Source: Chlorobiaceae bacterium
Lineage (GTDB): Bacteria > Bacteroidota > Chlorobiia > Chlorobiales > Chlorobiaceae
Direction of reading: 5' to 3'
NCBI GenBank assembly: GCA_013334975.1
Contig: JAAXWL010000008.1
Location: 1-49,736, forward strand
Length of the DNA stretch: 49,736 bases
The position numbers and the translations under genes were made by a program. Positions 6,275 to 16,485 of the stretch are shown here, one piece after another. Position 1 is the stretch's first letter. Every line of letters begins with the position of its first letter. The notes below the pieces were generated by a model that was not told the origin of the DNA, ran no database searches, and saw nothing but the letters and a program-made list of their open reading frames with translations.

Positions 6275-6286
6275 GGAGTGCCATCC

Positions 6287-7705
6287 ATGGAACTGGGAAG
6301 AACGAAGAACGTGCATATCGTCGGTATCGGTGGCGCAGGAATGAGCGCCATTGCCGAACTGCTGCTGAAGTCAGGGTTTTCGGTCACCGGCTCTGACCTG
6401 GCATCCGGGGAAGTAACCGAAAAGCTTCGTGAGATGGGGGCGATCATCCATCAGGGGCACGAGGCCTCGAATGTGGGTGAGAGCGACGTGGTCGTCTACT
6501 CTTCGGCGGTACGTCCGGAACGGAATGTCGAGATACTTGCTGCCGGAAAGCTAGGAATTCCGGTTATCAAACGCGATGAGATGCTCGGTGAACTGATGCG
6601 CTACAAATCGGGCATCTGCGTGTCGGGCACCCACGGCAAAACGACCACCACCGCCATGATTGCGACCATGCTTCTCGATGCGGGAGAGTCGCCGACGGTC
6701 ATGATCGGAGGTGTTTCTGACTTTCTGAAGGGCAGTACCATGGTTGGGGAAGGCCGGTACATGGTGATTGAGGCCGACGAGTACGACCGGGCGTTCCTGA
6801 AACTCACGCCGACCATCGCGGTGCTCAACAGCCTGGAATCGGAACACATGGATACCTATGGCACCATGGAGAACCTGAGGGAGAGTTTTGTGGAGTTCGC
6901 CAACAAGGTACCCTTCTATGGAAGGGTCATCTGCTGCGTGGACTGGCCCGAAATCCGCCGGATCATTCCGCGCATGAACCGGCGCCATACGACCTTTGGT
7001 ATTGAAGAGCCGGCTGATGTCTTGGCCTCCGATATTGAACTCCGGGAGGACGGCGCAGAGTTTACCGTTGAAGCGTTCGGCAATGTGTGGCAGGGGGTGA
7101 GGCTCGGAGTCCCCGGCAGACACAATGTACTCAACGCACTTGCGGCGTTTTCCGTAGGTCTCGAACTGGGGCTCCCGCCTGAAAAGATCATTGCAGGCCT
7201 TGCCCTGTACAGCGGTATGCGACGTCGTTTCCAGGTCAGATACCGGGGCGTGGATGGATTGCTGGTCATCGATGACTATGCCCATCACCCCTCAGAGGTT
7301 AAGGCAACGGTAAGGGCTGCCCGGGAGGGGTGGAAAAAGCACCGGATCGTGGCGGTCTTCCAGCCCCATCTCTATTCACGAACGGCCGAGTTTGCCGGTG
7401 AGTTCGGCTGGGCGCTCTCAAGAGCCGATACGATCTATGTTGCGGCAATTTATCCATCGCGTGAACGCGCCGAAGATTATCCGGGTATTACCGGCGAACT
7501 GGTTGCCGAGGCTGCACAAAAGGCTGGAGCCAAAAAGGTCTTTTTTGTTGATGAGACCGAGTCACTCTTTGCGGCCCTTCAGGGAGAAGCTGCCTCCGGT
7601 ACGCTCCTTTTGTTTATGGGGGCTGGCGATATCACCCAGCTTGCAGCCCGGTTTGCTGACTCGTGCCAATCTGCCGCAGCGAAGACAAACGGATTGGTGC
7701 AATGA
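6287..7705 (+). CDS. murC: UDP-N-acetylmuramate--L-alanine ligase
   Basis: MurC ligates L-Ala to UDP-MurNAc. The product has the N-terminal Rossmann motif [14 protein letters not shown] (11-24), the P-loop [10 protein letters not shown] (113-122), [18 protein letters not shown], and DDYAHHPSE in the C-terminal domain. A GTG at 6278 would add three residues but falls inside the AAGGAG ribosome site, so ATG 6287 with about 8 bases of spacing is chosen (472 residues). It lies 12 bases after murG and its TGA overlaps the murB ATG. Confidence 0.97.
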
Positions 7706-8634
7706 TCTCCACAGAAGTCCTTTTCCGCCTGGTCCGCGGGCCTGTGGTTGTTGCTGAACCACTCGCCACCTACACCGCCATCCGTACCGGTGGGCCGGCG
7801 GATTTTATGGTCAATCCGCGAGATCGTGCTGACCTGGTGCGTGCCTGCGACTATTTCAGTCGCCAAGGTGTTCCGCTCTTCATTCTCGGCAAAGGCAGTT
7901 CACTTCTGGTCAATGACCAGGGTTTTCGCGGAGCGGTCATCGCCACCCGGTTGCTTGATCGAATCGCCATCGAAGATGAGATTGCCGAAGTTGATGCCGG
8001 GGTTTTGTTGCCGGTACTTCTGGAACGACTCCGTCAGGCCTCCCTGACTGGGCTCGATGCGTTTGACACGATGTCGGGGAGTGTTGGTGGAGCGTTGCGG
8101 CGAAATGCTGAAGGTGGCAGTGCGGAGGTTATCGACAGCGTCGAATGGATCGATATCGTCAGGAAAGGGCGGCTGAGGCGCCTGAAGAGACGGGAGTTGT
8201 CCGTTGGCAGCACGCTCCCCCTGGCCGGTGAAGAGGTGATCCTTGGGGCCGGTTTCAGGCTTCGGCGAATCTCCTCAAAGGAAAAGCGGGAGTGCCGCCA
8301 GGAGACAGGCGGAAACGCTGTGCCGTCACCAGCTGAAGGGATTTCCGTAAAAGTATTCAGAACACCCCGGACGCTTTCGACGGACGAAGATGCATCGCCA
8401 GGCGAACTGGTCGAAGCCTGCGGACTCAGGGGGAAACGAATTGGAGGCGCATCACTCTCCCTGACCGATGCCAACACGATTGTCAATGCTGGCGGAGCCT
8501 CCTCGAATGATGTTTTTGAACTGGTGCGTCTGCTCAGAGTGTCGGTGCAGGAGAAGTTCGGGGTGAAACTCAATCTCGAACTGACGCTGGTGGGTTTTAA
8601 CCGGAATGGATGCGATGACCCTTTCAGAACGTGA
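7702..8634 (+). CDS. murB: UDP-N-acetylenolpyruvoylglucosamine reductase-like protein (divergent active site)
   Basis: MurB reduces enolpyruvyl-UDP-GlcNAc to UDP-MurNAc using FAD and NADPH. The 310-residue protein keeps the FAD-binding half ([31 protein letters not shown]) and the C-terminal fold ([16 protein letters not shown], then [12 protein letters not shown]) with the terminal Glu in LNLEL. Two signature motifs are altered. The YR-x-S motif is replaced by ELSVGSTL. The GS(V/F)F(K/R)NP loop with the catalytic Ser reads VKVFRTP, so Gly-Ser has become Val-Lys. Reductase activity is therefore uncertain, although fold and dcw position clearly indicate MurB. The ATG overlaps the murC stop; an upstream start at 7663 would lie deep inside murC. 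Confidence 0.85.
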
Positions 8635-9559
8635 TCAAAGGCATGAGACTCCTCAGCCGGAGCATTTCGGTACCCCCGGAGAGCACCCGCTGAAAGAGGA
8701 GGAATCCGCTGGCCGCGAAGGGAAGGTTGGGCGGATTTTGGGTGCAACACCGGTGATGATGTCTGTGGTGCTGCTGTTGCTTGTGGTGACTGCCGTTCTG
8801 TCCTGGTATGCTATGCAGTGGAAACAGCGCGTAACGGTCAACCGGTTGATTGTTACCGGTACCTCGCTGCTCTCCGCCGCCGATCTCGAAAAAGCCCTCG
8901 TCGGGTTCAGGGGGCGGAGTATTGATGAGGTCAGGGTCGATGATGTCAGGCGTGTCCTCGCATCGGAGCCCTATATCAGGAACATGGAGGTGAACCGGGA
9001 GCTGAACGGGATTCTGAGGGTCAGCATCACTGAACGCAGGCCAGCTGCGCTGCTGATTGAGGCTGAGCAGAGCCGAATCATCGATACGGAAGGCAATCTG
9101 CTTCCGGACTACGGAATTTCAGCGCGTTTCCGTCGTCTCGTGACCGTGTACGGCGCCGATTCGGCGCCGTCCGGGGTGTTGGGCGTTCGCCGAATGCATA
9201 CCGGAGACCGGGAACTGCTGTTTCTTTTACTCGATGCTTTTGCCAGATCGGAGCATGCCGGTCTGATGCTTTCGCAGATTCATCTTGCGTCCGAAAATGC
9301 GACCTGGTTTACCGTTGCGGGTTCACCAATCCGATTTGTTCTCGGCAATGACGGTAATTTCAAGGAAAAATTGAAAAAATTCGAGATATTCTGGCAAAAG
9401 GTTGTTGCAAAAAAGGGTATGGATTGCTATGAGTCGGTAGACCTCCGCTTCCGGAACCGGGTATTTGCCCGTGAGTCGACGCCAGAGGTGGACCCAGCGC
9501 TTCCGGTGCCACCAGTTGCAGCGCCGGAGGGCAGCCAACTTTACGATGAACATCATTGA
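8606..9559 (+). CDS. ftsQ: Cell division protein FtsQ/DivIB
   Basis: FtsQ is a bitopic divisome protein linking early and late division proteins. The 317-residue product has an acidic cytoplasmic tail of about 48 residues, one membrane segment (about 52-70, VVLLLLVVTAVLSWYAM), then a POTRA domain beginning VTVNRLIVTGTSLLSAADLE, followed by the FtsQ beta domain (ERRPAALLI, RIIDTEGNLLPDY). The C-terminus is Pro-rich. Sequence identity within the family is low, so the call rests on topology, POTRA pattern and location between murB and ftsA. ATG 8606 overlaps murB by 29 bases; ATG 8615 is also possible. Confidence 0.9.
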   Translation: MDAMTLSERDQRHETPQPEHFGTPGEHPLKEEESAGREGKVGRILGATPVMMSVVLLLLVVTAVLSWYAMQWKQRVTVNRLIVTGTSLLSAADLEKALVGFRGRSIDEVRVDDVRRVLASEPYIRNMEVNRELNGILRVSITERRPAALLIEAEQSRIIDTEGNLLPDYGISARFRRLVTVYGADSAPSGVLGVRRMHTGDRELLFLLLDAFARSEHAGLMLSQIHLASENATWFTVAGSPIRFVLGNDGNFKEKLKKFEIFWQKVVAKKGMDCYESVDLRFRNRVFARESTPEVDPALPVPPVAAPEGSQLYDEHH

Positions 9560-13839: not shown

Positions 13840-14856
13840 TTATGGCTTAACGGCCTGGACGAGCAGGTGGTCGTACTTTCTTACCATGGTGACGTCGGTG
13901 TAGCCGATGCCTTCGAGAATCTCTTTGTAGCGGGCCTGCTCCTTGAAGCCGAGCACCGAGAAGGGCATACCTGCGCCGAGGATGTAGTGGCTCAGGTAGT
14001 CGAAGTTCGGGTTTTCCGGATCGTCGATCACCATGTCGAGAATCAGCAGGCGACCGCCGGACTTCATGGCGTCAAAGGCCTTTTTGCACATCATGGTTGA
14101 TATCTGCTCGTTGGCCGAATAGAGGATACGGCAGAACATCACCGCATCAGCTTCGGGGTAGGGCTCACGGTAGATGTCAACGGCGATGCCTTTCAGACGA
14201 TCAGCAACCCCTTTTTCGGCGGCGTTCTCATTGACCAGGTCAATAGCACCGGGCAGGTTCAGGATGGTCGAGTGAAGTTCCGGGTATTGTTTCAGGATGG
14301 CCGCCGAGATGTCGCCGATACCGCCGCCGACATCGACTATCGATTTGACTCCGTCAAGTTTGGCCTCTTCGACGAGAAGCTGGATGGCAAAGAGGGCGTT
14401 GCTGCGGTGAATCTCCTCGAAGTAAAGGTTATCCTCGCGGGTTACCGGCGGATAGGGTACCTGACCCTTGAAGTTCTTTTTGCCTCTGACCGCCTCAGAA
14501 AGGCCCATGTAGAAATCGTCAGCAAGGAACGCCATGGCTTTGGCCACGGGGGTCTGATGCAGGTTCGGTTCTTTCGGGTTCGAAGAAAACATGAACTCGG
14601 CTAACGGAGTCAATGACCATTTGCCTTCGCACTGGCTGATGACGTTCATCTGCCGGAGTGTCTCGAGAAGCATTTCAAGACGGGGCGGTACCGAATCGGT
14701 ATCGGCTGCCAGCGTTGCGGTGTCCTTGGGGCCTTCGGCCATGTGGCTGAAGAGATCGAGTTCGATGGCCGCTTTCATGCAGCTGAACTCGATGAGGCCC
14801 TTGAAGACCAGCTCGTTAGCCCTGTGGTAGTAGTTCAGGAGGTCATTGTTGCTCAT
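13840..14856 (-). CDS. bchU: Bacteriochlorophyllide C-20 methyltransferase
   Basis: BchU is the SAM-dependent methyltransferase that methylates C-20 of the chlorin ring, converting the bacteriochlorophyll d series into the c series (also used for e). The 338-residue protein has an N-terminal winged-helix dimerisation domain and a C-terminal Rossmann fold with the SAM motif VDVGGGIGDISA (174-185). Tyr246 (FCRILY) and His290 (DYLSH) match the pigment/metal-binding residues I recall from the published Chlorobaculum tepidum structure. Length equals that protein, with no frameshift. Strains making only bacteriochlorophyll d often have a broken bchU, so this organism can probably make C-20-methylated pigment. 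Confidence 0.95.
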   Translation of the reverse strand: MSNNDLLNYYHRANELVFKGLIEFSCMKAAIELDLFSHMAEGPKDTATLAADTDSVPPRLEMLLETLRQMNVISQCEGKWSLTPLAEFMFSSNPKEPNLHQTPVAKAMAFLADDFYMGLSEAVRGKKNFKGQVPYPPVTREDNLYFEEIHRSNALFAIQLLVEEAKLDGVKSIVDVGGGIGDISAAILKQYPELHSTILNLPGAIDLVNENAAEKGVADRLKGIAVDIYREPYPEADAVMFCRILYSANEQISTMMCKKAFDAMKSGGRLLILDMVIDDPENPNFDYLSHYILGAGMPFSVLGFKEQARYKEILEGIGYTDVTMVRKYDHLLVQAVKP

Positions 14857-15074: not shown

Positions 15075-15839
15075 TTATCTTTTGAGCCCAATCAGCGCAA
15101 GCATCCGCCCGGTCAAGCCGTTGTCGCGCCTGTAGGAGAAAAATCGCGCCTCATCCCGGTACGAGCAGAACTCCGAGCACTCCACCTGCTCGGCAGGGAT
15201 GCCCGCTTCGAGCAACTGGTCGTGGTTCACCGCTAAAAGATCGAGCAACTGCCGTCCCTCTCCGGATGGCGATGCCTTGAGGTAGCGCCCGTCAAACCGT
15301 GCAGCAACATCACCGCCGATTTCGTAGTACTCGGCGGTGATGCCTGTGCCGACCCAGGCGAGGCAATCCTCCGGGCGGGTGCCGAACGCCTCCTGCATCG
15401 CCTTGACCGTCTTTTCAGCAATTCTTCCCGCAGTCCCCTGCCACCCAGCATGAGCCGCCCCGGAAGCACCGGTTCGGTGGTCATGGATGAGGATCGGGTA
15501 ACAGTCCGCCGTCATGATTCCAACAAAGATGCCGCGAACATTGGTAATGAGCGCATCGTATCCGTCGAGATTACCCTGCCCGGTAACAATCGCAATCTCA
15601 GTCCCATGCACCTGTCCGGTCGTCACAATGTTTTTCGGATTGATCTCCAGATACGCGCCAAGCTGCCGGTAATTCTCCAGAACATGCACCGGATTGTCAC
15701 CAGTATGCCACGCAAGATTCAGCGAATCCTGCGGCGCAACGCTCACCCCGCCAGAGCGGGTACTCTGAAGCACCACCAGTCCGGGGATGGTGTGGAAGAT
15801 AGATGGATAGACAGACTCGATTGTTGAGGAGTGAGGCAT
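15075..15839 (-). CDS. pgeF: Peptidoglycan editing factor PgeF / YfiH-family multicopper-oxidase-like protein
   Basis: The YfiH/LACC1 family acts on purine nucleosides; in some bacteria the protein is reported to remove wrongly built (L-Ser-containing) peptidoglycan precursors. The 254-residue protein keeps the metal-site residues: His in GQVHGTE (about 78), Cys in TADCYPIL (113) and His in AAHAGWQGT (130). The frame is open to 15941 but the family N-terminus begins at the ATG at 15839. Its nearness to the murein cluster fits the editing role, though the terminator shows separate transcription. Confidence 0.92.
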   Translation of the reverse strand: MPHSSTIESVYPSIFHTIPGLVVLQSTRSGGVSVAPQDSLNLAWHTGDNPVHVLENYRQLGAYLEINPKNIVTTGQVHGTEIAIVTGQGNLDGYDALITNVRGIFVGIMTADCYPILIHDHRTGASGAAHAGWQGTAGRIAEKTVKAMQEAFGTRPEDCLAWVGTGITAEYYEIGGDVAARFDGRYLKASPSGEGRQLLDLLAVNHDQLLEAGIPAEQVECSEFCSYRDEARFFSYRRDNGLTGRMLALIGLKR

Positions 15840-15841
15840 GG

Positions 15842-16485
15842 TGCTTCGGTTGCGATTATCGGGATTGGTGGATGATAGATGGTCAGCAATGTAAGGAGTT
15901 TTTCGGGTAAGCATCCCCTTAAACGGGGGACATAGCAGCAATGCGACTGTATAAGATGTTATTGTCGAAAAAAAATTATATTCTATTTATAATGATAAAA
16001 CTAGTTAATTTTTATAACCGCGGCGAAAAAAAATCGCAAATTCCTTAACTGATAAGATTTGGCAATCCCTGATTTATTTTGTCTTATATGCAAGCCCTGC
16101 CCTGAAAGATTTCTGAATGTGATAATAATTAAGAGTTTTCAATGCTGGATTATTGGTGCTTATGCTGAGGGAATATATATATGTATTCAATTGTAATTGT
16201 GTGATAGTTTGGTGGTTTTCTCCGACGTCAACGTGCTTCGATTTTCTGACATGGTCATGAATGCAGGTGTTGTTCTTGATTTTAATTTTTACAGCAGTGA
16301 AATTCCTTGTTTTTCACTTTTACGGGGTACCCATGAATGGAATACGTAAAATATAAAACTTTACCTGGCCGATCTGAAGGGCGGATATTGTTCGGTACTA
16401 TGTGTGAAAAAATCTTTTTTTCTATTGTTGTAATGTTTGTGGACGTGAAATAGGGAAAATATAAATTCAAAAAAAGAGGTGACAG
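15842..16485. other. AT-rich intergenic stretch without a recognisable gene
   Basis: These 644 bases are visibly AT-richer than the flanking genes and contain runs such as AAAAAAAATT and TATATATATG. Frames are short and none resembles a known protein. No tRNA, clear terminator or tandem repeat was found. The part near 16470 holds the ribosome site of the next gene. The composition suggests foreign or rapidly drifting DNA. Confidence 0.6.

Follow-up and report, generated by a model that had tools for sequence, protein, structure and literature searches.

The MurB homologue encoded between murC and ftsQ in the dcw cluster of a Chlorobiaceae bacterium (GCA_013334975.1, contig JAAXWL010000008.1; the window analysed is a stretch of 49,736 nucleotides) is, in our judgement, probably a displaced MurB that has become a pseudoenzyme with a non-catalytic role and that has repeatedly been lost. 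This reading draws on lost active-site residues, a second MurB whose site is intact, conserved gene order, deletions, a shortened form and a shift in purifying selection, all read directly from sequence. Loss of catalysis by the dcw protein is very probable. Its present role would be a non-catalytic one with no need for the substrate domain, as deduced solely from the selection data. The features concerned are collected in Table 1.

Table 1. Features of the dcw locus, of the second MurB and of the shortened dcw forms.
Feature	Position	Strand	Details
murC, upstream neighbour	6278..7705	+	
murC stop / murB start overlap	7702..7705	+	4 bp, ATGA
dcw MurB homologue, proposed pseudoenzyme	7702..8634	+	310 aa
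Residues 1-100, FAD-binding half (domain I), most constrained	7702..8001	+	dN/dS 0.05-0.15, homologue pairs
Ser67 in place of the GxGSN Asn of canonical MurB	7900..7902	+	alignment
Residues 161-230, ex-catalytic stretch (YRxS, RxxKQP, Ser loop), least constrained	8182..8391	+	relative non-synonymous change 1.61
VGSTLP, residues 168-173, in place of YRxS	8203..8220	+	alignment
Lys217 in the catalytic Ser column (V-K-V-F-R-T-P)	8350..8352	+	alignment
Glu293, C-terminal catalytic Glu, kept	8578..8580	+	alignment
murB end / ftsQ start overlap	8606..8634	+	29 bp
ftsQ, downstream neighbour	8606..9559	+	
MurB2, second MurB	L003:1438-3033 (G000:C19)		531 aa, MurB part plus ~230 further residues
181-aa MurB remnant without substrate domain, dcw locus	L103:1409-1951; L104:1794-2336; L105:1964-2506		three g2 genomes

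The gene order is murC-murB-ftsQ. Overlaps at both junctions are found in the lineages that carry this dcw murB and are absent from the canonical sister-family genome; they suggest that translation of the three genes is coupled. Beyond the dcw cluster, a few kilobases downstream, a BchU-like bacteriochlorophyll methyltransferase (13840-14856, minus strand) and a YfiH/PgeF-like (laccase-domain) protein (15075-15941, minus strand) were recognised by eye.

The earlier note on this DNA had claimed that the dcw MurB lacks the YRxS motif and the catalytic serine of the loop reading VKVFRTP whilst keeping the FAD fold and the C-terminal glutamate. Alignment with 32 canonical MurBs bore this out. The Tyr, Arg and Ser of YRxS are all missing, the proton-donor column (Ser, or Cys) is occupied by lysine, and the window protein keeps the C-terminal Glu. 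The loss proved broader than first noted: the Asn of GSN, the Pro of GIPG (Ser125), the Arg and Gln of RxxKQP (Asn205 and Ser209) and the His of KHxxF (Asp256) have also been replaced, at positions where the canonical residues are 88-100% conserved in the canonical set. Structural glycines are retained whilst catalytic and cofactor positions are gone. Because the overall pattern is common to eight homologous copies at the same locus, the losses are neither sequencing error nor chance. In the Pseudomonas aeruginosa enzyme, whose residue roles were mapped onto the dcw protein by alignment, Asn-57 coordinates K+, Arg-166 and Arg-224 contact the flavin, and Ser-239 and Glu-335 bind both substrates (PMC3689657).

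The fold is preserved. Searches against Pfam returned MurB_C (2.7e-17) and FAD_binding_4 (2.5e-15), and the score against the curated murB family TIGR00179 was 129.5 bits, below the cut-off of 144.5. The AlphaFold model has a mean pLDDT of 87.3, and since its first 18 PDB matches in Foldseek are all MurBs (TM 0.62-0.86), we conclude that the MurB fold has been kept. Model confidence is lower around residues 201-230, the region of the Ser loop, and the placement of Lys217 there depends on the alignment together with the overall fold match. Relative to the type II MurBs of Staphylococcus aureus (1HSK) and Listeria monocytogenes (3TX1), the dcw protein is homologous over its full length (approximately 28-31% identity), has the same predicted fold (TM approximately 0.8) and shares its dcw neighbourhood with the canonical gene of the sister family, but it lacks the YRxS, RxxKQP, GSN Asn, Ser and His positions and falls below the curated murB cut-off. 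By descent and fold the protein belongs to the MurB family, though not by its enzyme-defining residues, and it joins lost catalytic residues to a kept fold in the manner of a pseudoenzyme.

One of the possibilities raised beforehand was a second MurB elsewhere in the genome, and a genome search found it. Apart from the dcw protein, this 99.7% complete genome encodes a single member of the MurB family, hereafter MurB2 (G000:C19:14757-15572), which possesses all tested catalytic positions except that Arg159 is Lys. Across 27 Chlorobiaceae homologues of MurB2, the equivalents of Escherichia coli Tyr158, Arg214, Ser229 and Glu325 are invariant, as are the GSN Asn, the MNAG Asn, the GIPG Pro and the His. 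The Arg159 to Lys substitution, although unusual, is fixed in all 27 (L003:1438-2340 and 26 others). MurB2 was present in 31 of 31 Chlorobiaceae genomes in one survey and is the only MurB found in genomes without a dcw copy, which holds for most Chlorobiaceae. Because its site is intact in the 27 homologues and it is the sole MurB where the dcw copy is lacking, we infer that MurB2 is almost certainly the working enzyme making UDP-MurNAc. The dcw protein and the MurB2 of Chlorobiaceae (~540 aa) thus share MurB domains and a genome, but MurB2 differs in its otherwise intact active site, its extra C-terminal part, its location outside the dcw cluster and its separate clade.

The distribution of the dcw gene was surveyed in 86 Chlorobiaceae genomes; a contig search with the window protein alone gave no match, whereas an alignment query did. 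Full-length, inactive-looking dcw copies occur in eight of the 86 (nine copies), and three others (G060, G075 and G090) carry a shortened form of 181 aa that ends before MurB_C. The named homologues come from MAGs whose titles read Chlorobiaceae, Chlorobiales or Chlorobi bacterium. Direct inspection of 39 genomes showed ftsQ immediately after murC with no murB between them, and the dcw murB is likewise absent from G106. A sister-family genome (G005) has a canonical MurB at this position. On an FtsA+FtsQ tree these states need five changes, and genomes lacking the gene are nested among those with an intact one (for example G032 beside G151). Given this tree and the canonical MurB at the sister-family locus, the pattern is best read as several independent losses of the dcw murB, and such repeated loss shows that the family does not depend throughout on whatever the protein does. 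The MAG G148 appears to contain two dcw murB copies (L096 and L097), the former on a 3,689-bp contig (JAAXWQ010000024.1) that is close to G151; this copy is probably contamination.

In the protein tree, the full-length and shortened dcw proteins form one clade (99/88), whose neighbours are the same-order canonical MurBs (91/82); the stems are long. For this reason the dcw protein is most simply taken as the vertically inherited MurB of green sulfur bacteria. It was probably inactivated before the family radiated; arginine at the position of the GSN Asn is common to most full-length homologous copies and to the shortened ones. MurB2 stands apart in a clade of its own (100/100), likewise with a long stem. 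A single clade of dcw copies and MurB2, which a recent duplication would produce as the origin of MurB2, is not the best tree, but the AU test does not reject it (p 0.079); a clade uniting dcw copies, MurB2 and the same-order MurBs gave p 0.035.

We assessed selection by pairwise NG86 estimates, for which values on distant pairs are approximate. On this measure, full-length dcw copies have a dN/dS of 0.15-0.28, similar to the neighbouring ftsQ (0.16-0.32), whereas murC is lower (0.08-0.17); the 181-aa form gives 0.05-0.21. Non-synonymous change relative to the protein-wide value, taken over residues 1-100, 101-160, 161-230 and 231-300, was 0.51, 1.21, 1.61 and 0.92 in the dcw murB. The corresponding figures were 1.32, 0.68, 1.10 and 0.75 in MurB2, and 1.42, 0.68, 0.83 and 0.98 in canonical Bacteroidota MurBs (three pairs only). 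The constraint profile of the dcw protein is therefore reversed with respect to both. When residues 1-100 were mutated at random and only stop codons were rejected (200 runs), mean dN/dS was 1.03 and the minimum 0.34. Set against the observed values, this null indicates that the protein, and not only its open frame, is constrained and that the constraint lies off the active site. Purifying selection on the protein, as expected of a functional pseudoenzyme, is seen in the full-length and 181-aa forms alike. The suggestion that the dcw MurB has another role is consequently favoured in its general form, with no particular role singled out.

These data bear directly on whether the gene could instead be a decaying relic without protein function, its frame held open by the murC/murB/ftsQ overlaps and by coupled translation of ftsQ. 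Overlaps at both ends could indeed favour keeping the frame, the gene has been deleted in many relatives, and its catalytic residues are scattered and lost. However, avoidance of stops alone would give a dN/dS of about 1, far above that of the FAD-binding half or the 181-aa form, and in relatives murC and ftsQ lie next to each other with no murB in between. We therefore regard a relic as unlikely.

Similarly, conservation of the fold and the FAD half might reflect a flavoprotein with a different catalytic activity, its pocket reshaped for another substrate; the replacement of the Asn at position 67 by Arg in most copies is a specific rather than a random change and would fit such a protein. 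Against this, constraint is weakest in what used to be the substrate region, the 181-aa form is constrained though it lacks that region, and beyond the FAD half there is no obvious new cluster of conserved polar residues. A new chemistry is thus a rather improbable account of the gene.

It is most improbable that the protein is a MurB still at work, with Lys217 or a different residue taking the part of the catalytic Ser, one of the possibilities raised in the earlier note. The kept Glu293, the MurB fold and a lysine in the Ser column speak for it, and type IIb MurBs do use Cys at the Ser site (PMC3689657). Yet the Ser column in the nine copies reads S, S, K, K, R, R, R, R and G, and Glu293 is E in only three of the eight C-terminally complete copies, being D or G in the other five. 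Since both positions vary, a Lys-based mechanism is unsupported, and lysine as a replacement acid was rejected. Additionally, the two Arg positions that contact the flavin have been lost along with the Asn that coordinates K+ and the His, and the genome contains a complete second MurB. Some residual activity of the dcw protein is nonetheless compatible with its sequence, as the window protein retains Glu293 and Ser is still found in two close copies. Sequencing error or a plain pseudogene was rejected, given open frames in nine copies and a dN/dS well below 1.

The displaced MurB probably became a pseudoenzyme in the following way. MurB2, present throughout Chlorobiaceae, would have taken over UDP-MurNAc synthesis, and the dcw copy, freed from catalysis, would have lost the residues positioning flavin, NADPH and the enolpyruvyl substrate as well as those that protonate the product. 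Some lineages would have retained it as a pseudoenzyme that still needs its FAD-binding half; its function there is probably that of a binding or regulatory partner in the murC-ftsQ neighbourhood. One lineage has cut it back to that half, and several deletions have removed it altogether. More specifically, and only tentatively, in some green sulfur bacteria the protein might be devoted to cell-wall synthesis or division as a non-catalytic component, a FAD-fold adaptor or sensor that acts on MurC, FtsQ or MurB2 and can do without the MurB substrate domain, as in the 181-aa form.

Among pseudoenzyme paralogues in general, the trypanosome AdoMetDC prozyme (PMC5201418) is likewise a catalytically dead homologue kept under selection beside a working one. 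The dcw case differs in having no known partner or regulatory effect, in that one lineage has dropped the substrate domain, and in that the dead copy is the inherited gene whilst the active one belongs to a separate clade. Our search of open-licence papers turned up no account of a dead MurB, nor of a pair of MurBs in Chlorobiaceae.

Peptidoglycan synthesis requires MurB, which is also a drug target, and dcw genes are commonly assumed to be what they seem. In this case the dcw 'murB' very probably does not encode the enzyme, so that annotating it in the obvious way names the wrong gene, and in most Chlorobiaceae the only MurB found is MurB2 with its invariable lysine at position 159. The family and its sister family together show all stages (canonical, dead but constrained, shortened but constrained, and deleted), a series which amounts to a natural experiment on the non-chemical jobs of a Mur protein.

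The C-terminal extension of MurB2 (~230 aa) had no Pfam match above threshold (of 12 members, one matched CBM9_2 at E = 0.099), and the PDB offered nothing convincing. It is conserved, with the pattern VSELFI...YLEFEMTPEG.W.AL.F, and resembles a DOMON/CBM9-type domain; CDD includes a model named DOMON_murB_like. A domain of sugar-binding type on a cytoplasmic enzyme is puzzling.
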